Assembly: GCF_016031655.1 (NCBI RefSeq)
Contig: NZ_JACCHQ010000005.1
Location: 186,001 to 250,000 of the forward strand
Reading direction: 5' to 3'
Source of the DNA: Bradyrhizobium glycinis
Lineage (GTDB): Bacteria > Pseudomonadota > Alphaproteobacteria > Rhizobiales > Xanthobacteraceae
DNA length: 64,000 nt
Shown here: positions 4,717 through 58,695 of the stretch, one piece after another
How positions within the stretch are numbered: position 1 is the stretch's first letter
Layout: every line of letters starts with the position of its first letter
Notes under the pieces: generated by a model
Told to the model about the DNA's origin: nothing
Database searches by the model: none
What the model saw: only the letters and a program-made list of their open reading frames with translations
Position numbers and translations under genes: made by a program

Positions 4717-4862
4717 CGCGAGTGAAGCCTCCTGAGTTTCATGATCTCACACCAAGGACGCCGGCCGCCCGGCCGCTTCGCGAGCTTCGGGCATCATGTG
4801 AGCTACAGAGTAGGCGCGGCGGCGTCGAGGGGCAATTTCCGGTGGTGCGGGACGGTGCCGCC

Positions 4863-5495
4863 TCAACCGGCCAGCGAATCGGTCTGGCGCAGCGTCGTCA
4901 CCCAGATCACGCGCGCCACCTGCTGGGTCGGGTTGTCGAACATGTGCGGCACGATGCTCGGAAAACGAAAGCTGTCGCCGGCTTCCAGCACATGGGCCTG
5001 GTTGTCGAGCCACAGCCGCAGGCTGCCCGAGAGGATGTAGCCCGCCTTCTCGCCGGTGTGCTGCAGGAAGTCGGTGCCGGAGGAGGCGCCGGGGTTGAGC
5101 GTGAGCTCGTAGAGCTCGAGCTGGCCTTTGCCTTCCGGCGTCAGCGCTTCCTTGACGACGCCGCTGGCGGTGAGCCGCAGCAGCCGCCGGTTGGTCTTGC
5201 GCACGATATAGCGCTGCCCGTCGGCGGGATCGCTGCTCTCGAAGAAATAGGAGATGGGGACGTCGAGCGCGATGCCGAGCAGGCGCAGCGTGCGGATCGA
5301 CGGCATCGCGCGCGCGCGTTCGAGCTGGCTGATCATGCCGGTCGACAGGCCGGTCTTGTTGGCGACGTCCTGGATCGAGAGGCCGGCGCGCTGACGCAGC
5401 AGCCGCACGGTTTCACCCAGGCGCTGGTCGACCGCATCGTCAGCTTCGATCGCCGAAGCGTCCTTGGTGCCGTTGGTATTGCCGCGACCATCCAT
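4863..5495 (-). CDS. XRE-family regulator with C-terminal cupin sensor
   Basis: A 210-residue protein. An N-terminal lambda-repressor-type helix-turn-helix (residues about 25-80, with QDVANKTGLSTGMISQLERARAMPS split across its helices) is followed by a cupin_2 domain (about 125-205, PGASSGTDFLQHTGEKAGYILSG region). Proteins of this layout commonly repress or activate transport and catabolic genes for amino acids, polyamines or related compounds. The gene is divergent from the ABC transport operon that begins at 5715 and is the obvious local regulator. TTTAGT-type half sites in the shared intergenic region are its candidate targets. Confidence 0.87.
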   Translation of the reverse strand: MDGRGNTNGTKDASAIEADDAVDQRLGETVRLLRQRAGLSIQDVANKTGLSTGMISQLERARAMPSIRTLRLLGIALDVPISYFFESSDPADGQRYIVRKTNRRLLRLTASGVVKEALTPEGKGQLELYELTLNPGASSGTDFLQHTGEKAGYILSGSLRLWLDNQAHVLEAGDSFRFPSIVPHMFDNPTQQVARVIWVTTLRQTDSLAG

Positions 5496-18207: not shown

Positions 18208-18255
18208 CAACGTGTCGCGTCCCTAGCCGATGGCCTGCGATTCAGGGGACGCCGG

Positions 18256-18366
18256 TCACGAATTCACGTGGACGAAATCGCGCAGCAGCGGATAGATCTC
18301 GTTGTTCCAGCGCTTGCCGGAGAACACGCCGCAATGGCCGACGCCGGCCTGCATGTGGTGGACGCG
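18256..18366 (-). pseudogene. Extra copy of the phaZ 3' end (C-terminal 36 codons and stop)
   Basis: These 111 bases match 21175-21285, the end of the intact phaZ gene, at roughly 93 percent. Most differences are silent, one changes Tyr to Cys, and the stop codon is kept. The copy begins and ends abruptly and lies in the same orientation as phaZ. Together the two copies frame the TetR / NmrA-like / hydrolase cassette. Confidence 0.9.
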
Positions 18367-18370
18367 CTCC

Positions 18371-19000
18371 TCAAGCCCCATGACGTTCGATCAGGACTGT
18401 CGACGCCTCGCCTGCCCGTCGTGCGATGTCGGCGGTACTCGGCCGATCGATGGTCTGGAGCAGAAGACCCGTCATCAGGTCTCCCCATAGCACGCCCAGG
18501 AAAGTATCAGTCATCACCTCCGGCTCTCCGGTCAGCAGCCCTGCCGATACCGCGTTCGCCATGATGGTCCGCAATGCTTCGCGGATCGGCTTGCGTGCCA
18601 TCGTCTCCAGGGTTTGCGCGACTTTCGGCGCGTTGAGGGTTTCGGATATCGCCAGCCGGAATACGGCGACGACGACCGGGTCGGTCGTTTCCGTCAGGAG
18701 CTTCGTTCCAAACGCGGTGAGCACGCCGGCGAGCGTTTTCCTGTCGCGCAGTGCGGGCAGATCGACCGGCGCCTGGAGCCGTTGGGCGCGCTCGGAGATG
18801 CATGCGACGAGCATCGCTTCCTTGTTGCCGAACAGCGTGTAGAGATCCCGCTTCGAAACGCGGGCACGCGTCGCGATCTCGAGCGTGCTGGTCTGCGCAT
18901 AACCTCCCTCCATGAAGGCCGACAGGGCCGCACCAAGGATTCGTTTTCGGATCCCGGGGCCCTCCGCCTCCTTAACCGGCGGCTTGATCTTCGCGCTCAT
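18371..19000 (-). CDS. TetR/AcrR-family transcriptional repressor
   Basis: A 209-residue protein. I choose ATG 19000 because the upstream ATG at 19030 falls inside a candidate operator. The N-terminal helix-turn-helix is clear (STLEIATRARVSKRDLYTLFGNKEAM region, residues about 30-60). The C-terminal ligand domain resembles TetR_C proteins of the AefR type. It is divergent from the NmrA-like reductase gene, and two matching palindromes in the 100-base gap are its likely binding sites, so it probably represses itself and the reductase/hydrolase genes. Confidence 0.9.
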   Translation of the reverse strand: MSAKIKPPVKEAEGPGIRKRILGAALSAFMEGGYAQTSTLEIATRARVSKRDLYTLFGNKEAMLVACISERAQRLQAPVDLPALRDRKTLAGVLTAFGTKLLTETTDPVVVAVFRLAISETLNAPKVAQTLETMARKPIREALRTIMANAVSAGLLTGEPEVMTDTFLGVLWGDLMTGLLLQTIDRPSTADIARRAGEASTVLIERHGA

Positions 19001-19022
19001 CGACAAACTTTCCGCTTGACTT

Positions 19023-19071
19023 GGTACCACATAGTACCATATTTCGATTTCATCAGGTACCGATCAGTACC
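19023..19071. promoter_or_regulatory. Twin TetR operators
   Basis: GGTACCACATAGTACC (19023-19038) and GGTACCGATCAGTACC (19056-19071) are two 16-base palindromes sharing the arms GGTAC and GTACC. Their starts are 33 bases apart, about three helical turns. They lie between the divergent TetR and NmrA-like genes, the usual place for autoregulatory sites. The assignment to this repressor is an inference from position. Confidence 0.8.
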
Positions 19072-19103
19072 AAGGGGCGTCACAACGGTAAAGGACCATT
19101 CTG

Positions 19104-20033
19104 ATGTCGAACACAGTTCTCGTGACCTCCGCGGCCGGCGGTACGCAGGGAAGGACAGGCAGGCATGTTGCGGAAATGCTGCTCGAACGCGGTGTCGGCG
19201 TCCGCGCCTTCGTACGCCAGCGCGACGAGCGGTCCGATCGCCTGAAGTCGCTCGGTGCTGACATCGTCGTCGGCGACTTCCTCGATGCGAGATCGGTCGA
19301 CGCGGCCGTACAGGGCGTGTCATCGATCTATTTCGCCTATCCGGTTCAGGACGGGCTGGCGGATGCGACGGCTGCGATGGCGCTCGCAGCGCGCAGGCAT
19401 GGCGTCTCCCGCCTTGTCAACCTCGTCATGTATCAATCCTCGCTCGATGCGCCCACGCCGCGAATGCGGCAGAACTACCTGTCCGAGCAGGTGTTCGAAT
19501 GGGCCGGCGTCAGCCCGGTCCATATCCGCGCCACCGTCTTCTATGAAAACGTCGCGCGTCTCGTTGGGGCGAACCTGCCTGCGAAGGGAGCCATCCGGCT
19601 GCCGCTCGGGCACGAGAATACGCTTCTCCCACTGATCGCGGCCGAGGACGTCTCGCGGATCGCTGTCGGCCTGCTGACGGCGCCCGCGCTGGAGGCTGGA
19701 GCCGCCTATCCCGTGATCGGAAGCGTGATCTCCGTCCGCGATGTCGTCGAGACGTTTGCGCGCGTCCTCAAGAGAGACACGCACTACGAGGAGATCACCG
19801 ACGAGCAGTGGCGAGACGAAGCGCTCGCGCGGGGCTGGAACGCGCACGCGGTCGAACATCTCTCCTCGCTCTGGAAGTCGCTGCGTGCTGCGAGTGCTAC
19901 GGCGGAGGCAGCGCGCTTCAGCGCAAGCGACACGATCGAGACGATCGGTGGCGCCAAGCCGAAGACCTTCGAGCAATTCATCCGCGAGCGCGGGGCCGAA
20001 CTGGCCTCGCCGGCGGTACGCGCAACGGCCTGA
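19104..20033 (+). CDS. NmrA-like NAD(P)-binding oxidoreductase
   Basis: A 309-residue atypical short-chain dehydrogenase. The nucleotide-binding loop is TSAAGGTQGRTGRHVAEML near the N-terminus, slightly longer than the usual GxxGxxG. The rest follows the NmrA/HSCARG pattern (ADIVVGDFLDARSVDAAVQGV, then MRQNYLSEQVFEWAGVSPVHIR). Such proteins act as redox sensors or as quinone/aldehyde reductases. It is divergent from a TetR gene and 15 bases upstream of an epoxide-hydrolase-like pseudogene, a pairing common in xenobiotic or electrophile response cassettes. Confidence 0.85.
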   Translation: MSNTVLVTSAAGGTQGRTGRHVAEMLLERGVGVRAFVRQRDERSDRLKSLGADIVVGDFLDARSVDAAVQGVSSIYFAYPVQDGLADATAAMALAARRHGVSRLVNLVMYQSSLDAPTPRMRQNYLSEQVFEWAGVSPVHIRATVFYENVARLVGANLPAKGAIRLPLGHENTLLPLIAAEDVSRIAVGLLTAPALEAGAAYPVIGSVISVRDVVETFARVLKRDTHYEEITDEQWRDEALARGWNAHAVEHLSSLWKSLRAASATAEAARFSASDTIETIGGAKPKTFEQFIRERGAELASPAVRATA

Positions 20034-20048
20034 CCGGAGGCAGAGCTC

Positions 20049-21161
20049 ATGAACAGGCGTCAGTTGCTGACGGGGACAATGGGGGCGCTCGCATTTCGGG
20101 CGATGCCCGAGCTTCCTTCATCGAACGCATTCGCCGCAACTCCGGAACGAGATCGACAAATGAGCAAGACGACGCAACGGATCATCGCCTGCAACGGCAT
20201 CCACATCAACATCGCCGAGCAAGGCGAGGGGCCGCTGGTGCTTCTGGTGCACGGCTTCCCGGAATCCTGGTATTCCTGGCGACGCCAGATCGACGATCTC
20301 GCGGCAGCCGGCTTCCGAGTCGTCGCGCCCGACATGCGTGGCTATGGCAAGAGCGATGCGCCGCAAGCGATCGATCAGTACACCATCCTTCACCTCGTGG
20401 GTGACATGGTCGGCATTCTCGATGCCCTGGGCGAATTGCATGCAGTCATCGTCGGTCATGATTGGGGCGCCAGCGTTGCCTGGCAGGCGGCGCTGACGCG
20501 GCCCGATCGGTTCAGGGCCGTCGCCGCACTGAGCGTCCCATTCCGTCCGCGTGGCAAGACGCTGCCGACCAGTCTTATGCCGCGGACCGAGGACGCCCAA
20601 TTCTATCAGCTCTATTCCAGGAGCCGGGAAAGGCCGAGGCAGAGCTGGGACGCGATCCGCGCGCCACCATTCGCAACATGCTGTTCGGTGCGTCCGGGGA
20701 TGGCGTCGCCGCCGCACGTGCAGCCGCCGCGGCGGGTGGATCTGTGCCGAACCTCGGCATGGTTCCGAAGGGCGGCGGATTCCTGCAAGGCCCCGGTGCG
20801 CCGGCAACGTTGCCGTCCTGGATCAACGAAGCCGACATCGATTTCTACGGAGAACAGTTCAAGCGCAGCGGCTTCCGGGGTGCACTGAACTATTACCGCA
20901 ACATCGATCGCAATTGGGAGATCACCGGTGCGCTGTCCGGCCTGCAAGTAAACGTGCCGGCTCTTTATATCGCCGGCGACCGCGATTTCATCGTCGCCTT
21001 CCCGGGCACTGACCAATTGCTCGCGAACATGAAAGGCCTCGTCCCGGTCTGCGCGGGATCAGGATGCTTCCCGGTTGCGCCACTGGACCCAGCAGGAGCG
21101 GCCGAACGATATCAGTGCGGCGCTGATCGAATTCGTTCGTGCCTTGCCGAGCCGCTCGTGA
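20049..21161 (+). pseudogene. Alpha/beta hydrolase (epoxide hydrolase-like), frameshifted
   Basis: The N-terminus has a twin-arginine-like leader (MNRRQLLTG) followed by a normal epoxide hydrolase core: HGFPESWYSW oxyanion motif and nucleophile motif GHDWGAS. Near 20614 (LYF to LYS) one base is missing and the frame shifts into the one reading FQEPGKAEAELGRDP. Two further single-base losses near 21048 and 21074 are needed to reach LRGIRMLPG and then WTQQERPNDISAALIEF before the TGA at 21159-21161. All three losses lie in or beside short runs of like bases, so real decay or assembly error are both possible. Neighbouring genes read cleanly, which favours decay. Confidence 0.85.
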
Positions 21162-21174
21162 TGACCGGGCCGCC

Positions 21175-22398
21175 TCACGAATTGACGTGCACGAAATCCC
21201 TTAGCAGCGGATAGATCTCGTTATTCCAGCGCTTGCCGGAGAACACGCCGTAATGGCCGACGCCGGCCTGCATGTGGTGGACGCGGCGATAGGCGCGCAC
21301 GCCGGTGCAGAGGTCCTGGGCGGCGAGCGTCTGACCGATCGAGCAGATGTCGTCCTTCTCGCCCTCGACCGTCATCAGCCCCATGCGGCTGACGGCCCTG
21401 GTGTTCACGGGGCGGCCGCGATGCATCAGCTTGCCTTGCGGCAGGAGGTGCTCCTGGAACACGTCGCGCACGGTCTCGATGTAGAACTCGGCCGGCAGGT
21501 CCATCACGGCGAAATATTCGTCGTAGAAAGTCTTGATGGTCGCGGCCTTCTCCTTCTCGCCCTTGGCGATGTGGTTGGCGAGGTCGAGATGCTGCTTGAT
21601 GTGGCGCTCGAGATTCATCGAGACGAAGGCGGTGAGCTGCACGAAGCCGGGATAGACCTTGCGCAAGGCGCCGCGACACTGCACCGGCACGTAGTTGATC
21701 AGATTGCGCTCGAACCATTCGATCGGCTTGCTCTTGGCGAACTCGTTGACCCGGGTCGGCTGGATCCGCGTGTCGATCGGGCCGGCCATCAGCGTCAGCG
21801 TCGCCGGGCGCGAGGGATGGTTGTCCTCGCACATGATCGCGGCGGCCGCGAGCGCCGACACCGAGGGCTGGCAGATCGCCACCATGTGCGGGCGCGGCCC
21901 GAGTTGCCCGAGGAAATCGATCAGGTGCTCGGTGTAGTCGTCGAGCCCGAAGCGGCCCTCGCTGCGCGGGATGTCGCGCGGATTGTGCCAGTCGGTGATG
22001 TAGACGTCGTGGTCCTGCAGCAGCGTCTTCACGGTGCCGCGCAGCAGCGTCGCGAAGTGTCCGGACATCGGCGCCACCAACAGCATGCGCGGCTGCTCGG
22101 CCACGCCGTCCTTCTTGAAGTGCAGCAGCGAGCCGAATGGTGTCGCGTAGGCGATCTCCTCGCTGACCGCGACCTCGCGGTTGCCCACCATGACGCTGTC
22201 GATGCCGTAGGCGGGACGGTCATAGGTGAGGGTGGAGCGCGAGATCAGCTCCAGCGCGGCCGACAGCCGGCCGACCACCTGGTCCGATACGCCCTGAGGC
22301 ACCAGGTTGAGGAATTTGAGCGCGGACGAAGCCCCCGCGCGCCATGGCGCCGTCAGGTCCATGTGGTTCTGAAAAGCCTGATAGTACATCGACATCAT
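21175..22398 (-). CDS. phaZ: Intracellular polyhydroxyalkanoate depolymerase
   Basis: A 407-residue protein of the intracellular PHB depolymerase family that mobilises storage granules. The nucleophile is a cysteine rather than serine, in the segment MVAICQPSVSALA (Cys176), as in Ralstonia-type PhaZa. The N-terminal MYYQAFQNHMDL and the C-terminal HYGVFSGKRWNNEIYPL are typical. The stop lies 13 bases from the end of the hydrolase pseudogene, and the last 111 bases are duplicated at 18256-18366. It is divergent from the GST gene. Confidence 0.93.
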   Translation of the reverse strand: MMSMYYQAFQNHMDLTAPWRAGASSALKFLNLVPQGVSDQVVGRLSAALELISRSTLTYDRPAYGIDSVMVGNREVAVSEEIAYATPFGSLLHFKKDGVAEQPRMLLVAPMSGHFATLLRGTVKTLLQDHDVYITDWHNPRDIPRSEGRFGLDDYTEHLIDFLGQLGPRPHMVAICQPSVSALAAAAIMCEDNHPSRPATLTLMAGPIDTRIQPTRVNEFAKSKPIEWFERNLINYVPVQCRGALRKVYPGFVQLTAFVSMNLERHIKQHLDLANHIAKGEKEKAATIKTFYDEYFAVMDLPAEFYIETVRDVFQEHLLPQGKLMHRGRPVNTRAVSRMGLMTVEGEKDDICSIGQTLAAQDLCTGVRAYRRVHHMQAGVGHYGVFSGKRWNNEIYPLLRDFVHVNS

Positions 22399-54201: not shown

Positions 54202-54747
54202 TCAAAAATCATGAGGTCGGTTGCGCTGCACTTCGTTTACGCACGAATTGATCCATGCCGCCAGCTCGCGCCACGGCTCGATCGTCCAATGTCCGGACGC
54301 CGCACCCGAGGGCGACGGCAGCACGAAGACCTCCGGCAGGCTTGCATCGCGCACCTGCCGCCCCAGCGCAATCGCAGCCGACGGCTTGCCGTAAAACAGG
54401 CTCGCCGCCTTCTTGCCCGTGAACGCAACCGTCCGCGGCCGGTACTTGTCCATCTTCGCCCTGAAGCCCGGCACGTCGATCGTCTCCGCCGCGATCTGGT
54501 GATCCATCCCGGCGCCGGTCTTGCAGAGATCAGTGAAGCCGATTCCGAGTTCGATCAACTCCGCGAACTCGCCCGGCTGATAGCGCCGCGGCGTGATCCC
54601 GGCCTCATGGATCGCGCGCCAGAAGCGGTTGCCGGGATGGGCGTAGTAGTGGCCGACTTCTGCCGAGCGCGCCGAGGCGGCGGTGCCGACGAAGACGAGG
54701 CGGAGGTCGGGACGGAGCTGGTCGGGGAGGCGGTGAGTTGCATCCAA
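54202..54747 (-). CDS. Mismatch-specific uracil-DNA glycosylase (Mug/UDG family)
   Basis: A 181-residue enzyme of the uracil-DNA glycosylase superfamily. The water-activating region reads VGTAASARSAEVGHYYAHPGN, where Mug proteins usually have GINPSARSA. The C-terminal loop LPSPSGAAS is the minor-groove intercalation motif, and KMDKYRPRTVAFTGKKA precedes it. The AA for NP change in the first motif may alter substrate range. The 5' half is duplicated at 55394-55612, beyond a toxin/antitoxin module. Confidence 0.85.
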   Translation of the reverse strand: MDATHRLPDQLRPDLRLVFVGTAASARSAEVGHYYAHPGNRFWRAIHEAGITPRRYQPGEFAELIELGIGFTDLCKTGAGMDHQIAAETIDVPGFRAKMDKYRPRTVAFTGKKAASLFYGKPSAAIALGRQVRDASLPEVFVLPSPSGAASGHWTIEPWRELAAWINSCVNEVQRNRPHDF

Positions 54748-54768
54748 GTCAATCGTCCGTAGCTACGA

Positions 54769-55066
54769 TCACTCGTTCGTCTTCCGGGCTTCGCGGCCGT
54801 GCCATATGCGCGTGATCAGGATGTCTTGCGCTTCCGCCAGGACGGCATACCGCACGATGTAGCCGGACGCGCCAACCAAAGCGAACCACGATCTGGCGAA
54901 GCTCGGGATTTTCGGTCTGCATGCCCAGATTGGGAAACTCCTCCAGCCGCTCGATGGCGCGCCAGATCGGCGCGAGCGCGCGTTGCGCGGCGGTCGGGCT
55001 GTGTTGATCGAGAAAAAGGCGCAATCGCTCGACGTCCTCGACAGCGTCGGGCGAAAGCAGGATCAT
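54769..55066 (-). pseudogene. ParE/RelE-family toxin, frameshifted
   Basis: The N-terminal 66 residues (ILLSPDAVEDVERLRLFLDQ and EFPNLGMQTENPELRQIVV) follow the ParE family. Near 54868-54878 (WRVRL in place of SGYIVRYAV) one base is missing. Beyond it, the in-frame C-terminus YIVRYAVLAEAQDILITRIWHGREA and a TGA at 54769-54771 are found in the other frame. As written, the current frame gives an out-of-frame tail. The module is therefore probably inactive, with the antitoxin intact. Confidence 0.8.
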
Positions 55067-55350
55067 CCGATCTTGCGCGCCAGCGGTCGCGGCAGCTCCT
55101 TCGCCGACCCCCAGCTCGCGACCCAGTCCTTCACCTCATTGAGCGGCACGGCGGCGCCGGTCTCGCGGAAATCATCCAGCCGCCGGCGATCCTCGGCAAT
55201 GTCGGGGCCGGCAATATCGACCACGGAATCGAGCAGCGCCACCGCCTCAGCGAGCACGGCGGCGACATCCTGCCCGCGCTCGTCGGCCATCTCGCGCAAA
55301 CGCGCGTCGGTGTCGGCGTCGATGTCCAGCGTGCGGCGAATGATGTTCAT
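55063..55350 (-). CDS. ParD-like antitoxin
   Basis: A 95-residue protein. The N-terminal MNIIRRTLDIDADTDARLREMADERG is a ribbon-helix-helix segment for DNA binding. The C-terminal part (LDDFRETGAAVPLNEVKDWVASW) is the toxin-wrapping region of CopG/ParD antitoxins. It overlaps the toxin frame by four bases, ATGA-type coupling. The partner toxin is frameshifted, so only the antitoxin and its autoregulation may remain. Confidence 0.85.
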   Translation of the reverse strand: MNIIRRTLDIDADTDARLREMADERGQDVAAVLAEAVALLDSVVDIAGPDIAEDRRRLDDFRETGAAVPLNEVKDWVASWGSAKELPRPLARKIG

Positions 55351-55393
55351 GCCATCAGGATAGGCGCGGAGGGGGAATTTGTCGAGGCGCCCG

Positions 55394-55612
55394 TCTTGGA
55401 GAGATCGGTAAGCCGATCCCGACCTCGATCAGCGCTGCGAACTCGTCCCGGCTGATACCGCCGCCGCGTGACCCCAGCCTCATGGAGCGCGCGCCAGAAG
55501 CGGTTGCCGGATGAGCGTAGTCGTGCCCGGGCTCGGCCGAGCGCGTCGAAGCGGCGGTGCCGACGAAGACGAGGCGGAGGTGGGGGCCGAGTTGGTCGGG
55601 GAGGCCGTGGAG
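55394..55612 (-). pseudogene. Decayed copy of the glycosylase 5' half
   Basis: About 220 bases matching 54520-54739 of the intact glycosylase gene at roughly 83 percent with several small indels. Translation in pieces gives LRLVFVGTAASTRSAEPGHDYAHP and EFAALIEVGIGL. The copy lies in the same orientation, on the far side of the toxin/antitoxin module. It is not expected to be expressed. Confidence 0.85.
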
Positions 55613-55743
55613 GGTGGAGGTGGGAAAATCATCTATCCGCAGAGTTGCAGCCCGCATGAGCGTCAGTGACATGCGGCTCAGCTGTCGATCCCCGATATCG
55701 CTACGCTCATTCAGGCTACGCTTACTGGCGATCACGATGAGTT

Positions 55744-55790
55744 AGGGGTTGCTTAGGTGGTTAGCGAAGCGTACCCCACCAATCGTCCAG
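55744..55790. repeat. Palindromic repeat remnant (TTAGCGAAGCG family)
   Basis: GGTGGTTAGCGAAGCGTACCCCACC, related to the palindromes at 30263-30336 and 31723-31810, forms the last part of the adjacent minus-strand gene's 3' end. A short relative is at 56632-56655. Confidence 0.55.
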
Positions 55791-56543
55791 CGCCCTACGT
55801 GCTGTCACGACCAGCGCCGGGAGCGATCGCCGTTTAACGTTCATGCAGCCAGGGTCGCTCTGCTGTTCTTTTTCCTTGAGGACGCCAGCCGCAACAAACG
55901 CGGCACGGTCATCCGGACAAAACTCGGATGATTTTCGATCCAACTCCTCGAGGCTAAGTGGAGTTGAGAGAATGCAGGCACCCGTGCCGCGATGGCCTGT
56001 GCGGTACGCGATTGATTTGAGAATCAGCTTGTAAGCGCGGGCCGCCGTGATCTCGTGATCCCACGGCGATTGTAGCCACCAATTGCCAGCGACGATCCGC
56101 GCGGTGGAGACGACGCCGACGTGGTAGGACGTCGTTTCGTCGCCAAAGCTCGCGGAAAACGCATAGCGCCAATTCCAGGCCTCGACCTTCAGATCGAACG
56201 GAACAAGAAGATACTTGAACGAAGGCGCATTTCCTTCGTCCGCTGTTCGCTGGATGAACCGGTCCGCCACCTTGGTGGCCTCGAATTGGGTGGGCGTTGC
56301 GAGCAATTCGGATCCGAGCGGAAGGTCTAGAGCTTGCACAGAGACGGGGGCGGTGAGCACGCGCCGAAGCGCACAAACCAGGGGTTGGACGAACTCCGTG
56401 CGTTTCAAGTCTGACTGGATGTAGAGCACGACTTCCGCAGGTGCGATCGGCCGGGCAACCTCGCGAGGCTGCTCCTGCGCCAGCGCGCCCGACGTCCCAG
56501 CGAGCAGGAAGGAAAATATCAGATCGTGCAATCTGTACTTCAA
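55761..56543 (-). CDS. Exported protein resembling archaemetzincin, without the zinc motif
   Basis: A 260-residue protein with a signal peptide (cleavage after ALA, about residue 22). The segment LDRKSSEFCPDDRAAFVAAGVL near residue 205 is the conserved archaelysin C-terminal block, and a Cys-containing GACILSTPLSL precedes it. The HExxHxxGxxH motif expected about 15 residues before that is absent (it reads SIAYRTGHRGTGAC). I read this as a divergent, probably non-catalytic relative of peptidase family M54. The last 27 residues run into a palindromic repeat. Confidence 0.5.
   Translation of the reverse strand: MKYRLHDLIFSFLLAGTSGALAQEQPREVARPIAPAEVVLYIQSDLKRTEFVQPLVCALRRVLTAPVSVQALDLPLGSELLATPTQFEATKVADRFIQRTADEGNAPSFKYLLVPFDLKVEAWNWRYAFSASFGDETTSYHVGVVSTARIVAGNWWLQSPWDHEITAARAYKLILKSIAYRTGHRGTGACILSTPLSLEELDRKSSEFCPDDRAAFVAAGVLKEKEQQSDPGCMNVKRRSLPALVVTARRALDDWWGTLR

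Positions 56544-56784: not shown

Positions 56785-58695
<1,911 letters not shown>

Follow-up and report, generated by a model that had tools for sequence, protein, structure and literature searches.

In the window, the whole 64,000-nucleotide stretch of Bradyrhizobium glycinis DNA analyzed here, a ParD/ParE toxin–antitoxin pair lies between a whole copy of a mug-like glycosylase gene and a second copy of the 5′ end of that gene. We propose, with modest confidence, that this fragment–parDE–mug arrangement is a recombination scar around an old ParD/ParE pair linked to thiC. Such a scar leaves mug whole, and parDE could be lost through the flanking repeats. The arrangement is common to several species and is not private to the window genome.

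Layout and gene content of the locus

The two glycosylase copies form a 225-bp direct repeat (54511–54735 and 55386–55609; 86.3% identity over 226 aligned bases, E = 1.4e-68), the top-scoring pair in a self-search of the 64-kb window. One arm lies within the intact mug at 54202–54747, which begins with TTG; the other is the 5′ fragment at 55386–55612, which corresponds to approximately the first 79 codons of the 181-codon ORF (44%) and has a broken frame in the window genome. Both copies, parD and parE are all on the minus strand. The repeat confirms the sequence-only reading that a whole and a 5′ partial glycosylase copy flank ParD and ParE in the same orientation. The fragment ends given in that reading (55394–55612, 83% identity) were close, the measured values being 55386–55612 and 86%.

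Read along the minus strand from thiC (56785–58683; name assigned from its sequence), which anchors the locus, the order is a REP-like interspersed repeat (55613–55745) directly upstream of the mug fragment, the fragment itself, a promoter-like site, parD, parE and the whole mug. The promoter-like site (55357–55385; TCGACA and TATCCT separated by 17 bases) is situated directly 5′ of the parD ATG, and in the window its −35 box starts at the first base after the fragment. A promoter scan returned 2 sites in the stretch, compared with 0.1 expected in shuffled sequences. The antitoxin gene comes first: parD (55063–55350) is intact, encodes 95 residues and overlaps the toxin gene by 4 bp. The frameshift previously noticed in parE (54769–55066) was borne out by three-frame translation; frame 0 encodes ParE up to about residue 64, where the frame moves, and the native-frame stop is found at about 54769 (the mechanically called ORF spans 54749–55066). 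A spacer with the mug leader (54748–54768), nearly uniform among parDE genomes, completes the unit. A terminator scan found no terminator between parE and mug, and mug may be transcribed from the parDE promoter or cotranscribed with the pair.

Part of the REP-like repeat (55639–55721) matches many places in many of the Bradyrhizobium genomes searched, and several relatives without parDE have repeats related to the whole element directly 5′ of mug. The ORF at 55761–56543, located between thiC and the fragment, has a weak match to archaemetzincin proteases (30.8 bits against a cutoff of 145).

The window glycosylase matches the Pfam UDG family (PF03167, E = 2.6e-20), indicating a mug-like sequence of the UDG superfamily, and its closest solved chains are G/U mismatch-specific DNA glycosylases (2c2p_A, E = 6.6e-36). 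It scores 85 bits against the 144 required by the NCBI equivalog model NF007570, and we refer to it as mug-like and not as a curated equivalog. ParE belongs to toxin family PF05016, for which the broken window copy scores 29.6 bits and the intact copy of G029 (L059) 55.4 bits (cutoff 23); it also matches the solved chain 7etr_C (E = 1.9e-13). ParD gave no match to Pfam, and its profile matched the CopG-type antitoxin 7etr_A weakly (E = 0.0044). The protein is named by context, its position and size fitting the upstream ribbon–helix–helix antitoxin of a type II pair.

No transposase or integrase ORF was seen between the mug copies (inspection by eye; parD and parE were scanned), and the inverted repeats there are short and imperfect. 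The 64-kb window contains no tRNA gene. With neither a transposase or integrase nor a tRNA site, the mug locus does not qualify as a transposon, an integron or a genomic island. Carriage of parDE by plasmids or phages was also considered and rejected, as ParD had no match in collections of 72,556 plasmid and 50,697 phage records.

Distribution and inheritance of parDE

We searched 265 genomes of the genus Bradyrhizobium, including that of the window. Among the matches listed, the whole fragment–parDE–mug unit was found in 10 of the 265 (G000, G232, G092, G286, G029, G108, G026, G034, G211 and G083). Four further genomes carry eroded versions: G121, G152 and G018 have parDE–mug with little or no fragment, and in G145 39 bp of the fragment remain as a tail, parD is shortened and parE is truncated. 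The 40 mapped loci, which are the parDE–mug genomes plus the best other matches and not a random sample, comprise 9 whole units, 4 eroded ones, 3 with parDE without mug, and 24 with thiC and mug without the parDE block. In G195, G234 and G025, parDE lies between thiC and orfE, and mug is absent. Among the 24 parDE-less loci, G118 keeps a 49-bp parD remnant before mug, and G186 has two mug copies. Two genomes mapped under a second label (L282 is G143, and L279 is G506) were counted once each.

The sequence-only reading had proposed a search for sites in their preinsertion state, and sites without the insert exist both at mug (G155) and at phaZ (G286, G092 and G113), a second locus discussed below. 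The G155 locus (L091) contains thiC, the archaemetzincin-like ORF (96%), the repeat and one intact mug with no parDE, that is, the window layout minus parDE. The rpoB tree places G155, which has no parDE, as sister to the group of G286, G232 and the window genome, all of which have it. Across the 30 genomes of this tree, those with parDE and the others alternate, with 10 state changes, at least 9 of which are forced by supported branches; the genomes were hand-picked (14 with parDE and 16 others), making the number of changes a biased count.

The pair is not confined to the neighborhood of mug. It adjoins thiC in at least 19 of the 34 Bradyrhizobium genomes with a parDE match, namely the 14 with whole or eroded parDE–mug together with G195, G234, G025, G212 and G143. 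The genes of G143 (Bradyrhizobium sp. STM 3843) are arranged as thiC–RidA–parDE–mug–orfE, with parE and mug 1.2 kb apart. Outside the genus, the surroundings of eight genomes with a close ParD were examined. Three of them, from two other genera (G506, G492 and G436), carry parDE 1.4–2.6 kb downstream of thiC in the same orientation; four show no thiC linkage within about 6 kb, and the contig of the last is too short. When "beside thiC" is mapped as a label on a 37-row tree of ParD, it requires 4 changes, and none of 500 shuffles needed so few; for several rows, the opposite label was judged from a flank of only 1.5–6 kb.

Pairwise distances were compared for 13 parDE genomes. The sets used for distances and dN/dS exclude G145, in which parE and part of parD are deleted, and G195, G234, G025 and G212, which have no fragment–parDE–mug unit. 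The parDE distances correlate with those of thiC (r = 0.75, p = 0.0002) and of rpoB (r = 0.53, p = 0.0004), a gene that the window genome carries on a different contig, and show no correlation with those of the adjacent mug (r = −0.07, p = 0.64). The mug distances of the parDE genomes do not follow rpoB (r = 0.13, p = 0.18), whereas those of 15 parDE-less genomes do (r = 0.38, p = 0.002). Over all 28 genomes, the correlation with rpoB is 0.35 for mug and only 0.33 for thiC. For the 10 fragments, pairwise distances show no correlation with those of parDE, thiC, rpoB or mug.

The location of parDE beside thiC across lineages and genera, combined with distances that track thiC and rpoB, argues that the pair is an old neighbor of thiC and not a recent capture, and recent capture of the module was rejected on these grounds. 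The position beside thiC looks ancestral, the direction of change being uncertain, and loss explains most of the patchy distribution of parDE. The earlier picture of a captured cassette trapped in mug is not supported by the linkage to thiC in at least 19 of 34 genomes of the genus and 3 of 8 from other genera. The relative age of the two parts, which had been named as a point to check, also favors the pair, the module being the older feature and the fragment the younger.

The dN/dS values are 0.175 for parD (13 genomes), 0.141 for parE (the 10 genomes with intact ParE) and 0.146 for parD among the 3 genomes with broken ParE. Both genes are under purifying selection. ParE is intact in 10 of the 13 parDE–mug genomes, including G232, and broken in the window's genome, G152 and G018; mug is free of stops over the 150 codons checked in all 13. 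The window copy should not be addictive, its ParE being broken, while parD is intact and, judged from its codon substitutions, under selection across the set.

Junctions, exchange with mug and origin of the arrangement

All 10 whole fragments end at one identical base of mug and are followed at once by the −35 box of parDE. From that box to the parD start, 35 bp are conserved among all the thiC-linked Bradyrhizobium copies compared; four of these copies have no fragment and differ in what lies upstream (G195, G234, G025 and G212). Since parDE homology starts at the same base despite different upstream DNA, the left junction coincides with the border of the parDE promoter. A decayed fragment tail of about 40 bp precedes the left junction in G145, G018 and B. 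japonicum SZCCT0231 (L263), the last lying outside the 265-genome set; G152 keeps about 7 bp of the fragment there, and G121 only its first 60 bp, 1.4 kb away (all by eye). This constancy bears on one alternative, in which mug underwent an ordinary partial duplication and parDE landed beside the copy later. Partial mug copies without parDE do exist (G214, G273 and G120), but they end elsewhere in mug, whereas in all 10 genomes with a whole fragment its border with parDE falls on an identical base, and we consider such a chance juxtaposition highly improbable.

On the right side, 12 of 13 genomes have 20–30 bp after parE and then a mug leader of almost constant sequence; the region is shortened in G018. 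Leaders before the fragments vary as much as those of parDE-less genomes. A division into sharply distinct leader types was tried and rejected, many leaders being variants of one sequence; the near-uniformity to the right of parE stands. As for short shared sequences at the ends of the duplicate, which the sequence-only reading had suggested looking for, the left mug/parDE junction shares at most 1–2 bp with what precedes parDE in other lineages (by eye), and the right side is too old for this comparison. In 7 of the 10 genomes (L056, L057, L058, L059, L061, L063 and L064), the fragment frame ends in a TGA that overlaps the parD ATG, an overlap absent from the window. Judging from this spacing, the truncated mug could be translationally coupled to parD.

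We propose that, in an ancestor of the sampled parDE–mug genomes, a chromosome with thiC–mug was joined to one with parDE–mug. The left join would have connected mug, at about codon 79, to the parDE promoter of a chromosome carrying parDE directly upstream of mug, and the right side would have closed through ordinary homology inside or beyond mug. The product would retain mug whole, with the 5′ end of the recipient's mug left on the thiC side as a direct repeat of 225–250 bp. Subsequently, parDE would have been inherited mainly vertically, while homologous recombination would have continued to exchange sequence between mug alleles and both the fragment and mug. The two repeats could also recombine with each other, deleting the fragment and parDE and restoring one intact mug, which would yield clean parDE-less sisters; erosion in place would be a second route of loss, as in G118 and G145. 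Joining of two such chromosomes is favored by the single junction in 10 of 10 genomes, the clean G155 site, the vertical signal of parDE, the gene order of G143, the codon constraint on the fragment and the mosaic flank of G232 and G118. Against it, the proposed donor order (parDE, 30 bp, mug) did not turn up in any genome that clearly never had the fragment, and in G143 parE and mug are 1.2 kb apart.

The same structure would be expected if parDE had entered the start region of mug as a small mobile unit and duplicated a target of about 250 bp. The single-copy site in relatives and the direct repeat that bounds the insert agree with such an entry, as do similar structures with other cargo in G186, G214, G273 and G120 and at phaZ; duplications of the order of 100 bp are described for insertions of this kind in a review (PMC3874152). 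However, arrival from elsewhere is not needed for a pair that adjoins thiC in other lineages and genera, inspection by eye of the DNA between the mug copies disclosed no transposase ORF, and the plasmid and phage collections held no ParD match. Long target duplication cannot be separated firmly from a join of two chromosomes. We prefer the latter because parDE was already in the neighborhood, and we regard the entry of a mobile unit as unlikely.

The codon-position comparison covered 10 fragments, 14 mug sequences from parDE genomes and 25 mug rows from 24 genomes without the parDE block. Fragments diverge from one another by 0.099, 0.088 and 0.175 at positions 1, 2 and 3, compared with 0.049, 0.036 and 0.158 among mug genes from genomes without parDE. 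Positions 1–2 relative to position 3 give a ratio of 0.53 for the fragments (5–95% bootstrap, 0.41–0.70) and 0.27 for the parDE-less mug (0.16–0.37). Because divergence is unequal among codon positions, the fragment has not simply been drifting since one origin. Within it, the 5′ half has a ratio of 0.38 and the half adjoining parDE one of 0.65, and the bootstrap intervals of the two halves overlap. The fragment differs from the mug of its own genome by 4% in G211 and by 9.6–12.9% in the other nine. In its sequence, the fragment appears effectively younger than its neighbors and partly codon-constrained, and it looks refreshed from functional mug alleles. The simplest reading of these substitution patterns is that recombination with such alleles keeps rewriting it, most easily at the end away from parDE.

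Mug copies from parDE genomes are scattered among parDE-less ones in trees of both halves, which are weak; resolution is also weak for the 228-bp repeat, whose trees have stars on 3 of 46 inner branches. A foreign origin of the whole mug copy was rejected, the copies being intermixed with parDE-less mug in both half-trees. A TGC to TCC change near the junction was considered as diagnostic of fragments and rejected as a common polymorphism of mug.

Exchange is also visible at the left flank. To the left of its fragment, G232 (L056) has the 37-bp 3′ end of parD (oriented positions 5331–5367), a repeat and a mug leader; G118 (L073), which has no parDE, has the same parD remnant (49 bp, oriented positions 4777–4825), repeat and leader, followed by a whole mug. 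The flank common to the two genomes ends in mug homology, which indicates that it was exchanged at that homology. The remnant in G232 could also be the rest of a first tandem copy, and this brings in another possible origin, in which parDE and the initial 226 bp of mug were duplicated in tandem and the leading parDE copy was then lost. The observed junction between base 226 of mug and the parDE promoter is precisely the one expected from such an event, and parDE before mug is an old order. However, the G232 remnant precedes a repeat and leader of the G118 type, which stand before a whole mug in that genome, and exchange explains the remnant as well. A parD remnant is present in only 1 of 10 genomes, and none of the 34 holders among the 265 genomes has two parDE matches (two candidates scored per genome). 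We consider tandem duplication rather improbable.

With regard to loss under the joining of two chromosomes, clean parDE-less sites may be pop-outs through the repeats. The last 40 bp before mug in G155 differ from those of the window, and replacement by a parDE-less allele would explain this site as well as a pop-out. In G118 and G145, parDE was lost through erosion and not by pop-out. It is also conceivable, although we doubt it, that the unit is a transposase-free mobile addiction cassette in which the mug copies serve as homology arms. If so, about 1.4 kb of DNA would contain everything that homologous recombination needs to add or remove parDE while leaving any mug unbroken, and the fragment would stay mug-like through rewriting at each insertion or exchange, the flank of G232 and G118 being one such case.

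Duplicated neighbors elsewhere and known systems

A cassette flanked by a duplicated piece of its neighbor had also been noticed at phaZ, and this layout is real. The 3′ end of phaZ on the minus strand (18246–18366) recurs at 21167–21285 (121 bp, 92% in the window self-search), on either side of an insert (18371–21166) with a TetR gene, an NmrA-like oxidoreductase gene and a broken alpha/beta-hydrolase gene. The 111–113 bp phaZ segment present twice in the window occurs once in G286, G092 and G113. Part of the insert lies beside phaZ in G062 at 96–97%, where the opposite flank, with most of the duplicate phaZ segment, is found 7.8 kb beyond the insert, and G238 has a related insert about 4.6 kb from an uninterrupted phaZ site. 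The suggestion that one process produced both cases is not substantiated, the cargo being different and the opposite gene end being duplicated, and we treat phaZ as separate from mug. In the 64-kb window there are two coding repeat pairs, and 400 kb of the same genome contain two pairs of about 100 bp (82–84%, one sequence family); the window was chosen for its repeats, so the two counts do not lend themselves to a significance test.

Further duplications were observed at the mug locus in relatives, where the number of extra mug pieces is a minimum (among the matches listed, with two candidates scored per genome). G186 (L071) has two whole mug genes in a 560-bp direct repeat (92.7%), about 2 kb apart, around about 1.4 kb with other ORFs, and in both mug trees these copies group most closely with one another. 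Pieces of mug measuring 213, 162 and 415 bp are present in G214 (L225), G273 (L226) and G120 (L227), respectively, on the thiC side, in mug orientation and before other cargo, with ends elsewhere in mug. The cargo in G214 is a HAD hydrolase; in G120 it is an FRG-domain protein matching the PADLOC candidate PDC-S15, accompanied by a probable IS110-type transposase (named by eye). In G212 (L156/L272, the MAG Bradyrhizobium sp. D3_Bin_4), parD lies within a 282-bp direct repeat of orfE (92.6%) with no ParE match at the locus, an independent case of a neighbor duplicated around parD. Taken together, the extra mug copies or pieces in at least four relatives and the orfE repeat of G212 indicate that flanking duplication recurs at this locus.

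This is a multispecies case of a toxin–antitoxin pair bounded by direct repeats of an intact host gene, with parDE-less sister species for comparison. With it, one can test how toxin–antitoxin pairs of this type survive with no mobile element, whether an active toxin prevents deletion through the repeats (ParE being intact in 10 of 13 genomes and broken in 3), and how recombination keeps the scars left by gene fragments young. In the titles and abstract openings searched, with subscription journals mostly outside the search, we found no paper describing parDE between mug copies.

One close analogy for the mug/parDE unit is insertion with long target duplication (Nobusato et al. 2000), proposed for restriction–modification genes of Helicobacter pylori according to PMC1643837, PMC3031569 and PMC3874152. 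As in that system, the unit is absent from a relative, is flanked by a direct duplication of host DNA of at least about 100 bp, and carries addiction-type cargo with no transposase; relatives with a single target and no insert are found at mug (G155 and others) and at phaZ (G286, G092 and G113). The differences are that the cargo is parDE and not a restriction–modification system, that many species share the same junction, that parDE is probably ancestral to the locus, and that the duplicate keeps recombining with the whole gene.

A second comparison is with homology-facilitated illegitimate recombination, by which effector/immunity modules of type VI secretion were displaced in Vibrio cholerae (PMC5361080, PMC3240628). 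The likeness would consist of one end joined by homology and the other without it, together with a displaced remnant of the resident gene. Our remnant differs in coming from the 5′ end of a gene of which a complete copy is retained, so that it can act as a repeat, and our joining event is deduced from sequence and was not observed. Finally, the pair itself differs from a type II ParDE with a CopG-type antitoxin (PDB ID: 7etr) in its broken window toxin, its linkage to thiC and mug, and the host-gene copies on both sides, and resembles it in the antitoxin gene coming first, the 4-bp overlap, the toxin of the ParE/RelE family and the promoter-like site.
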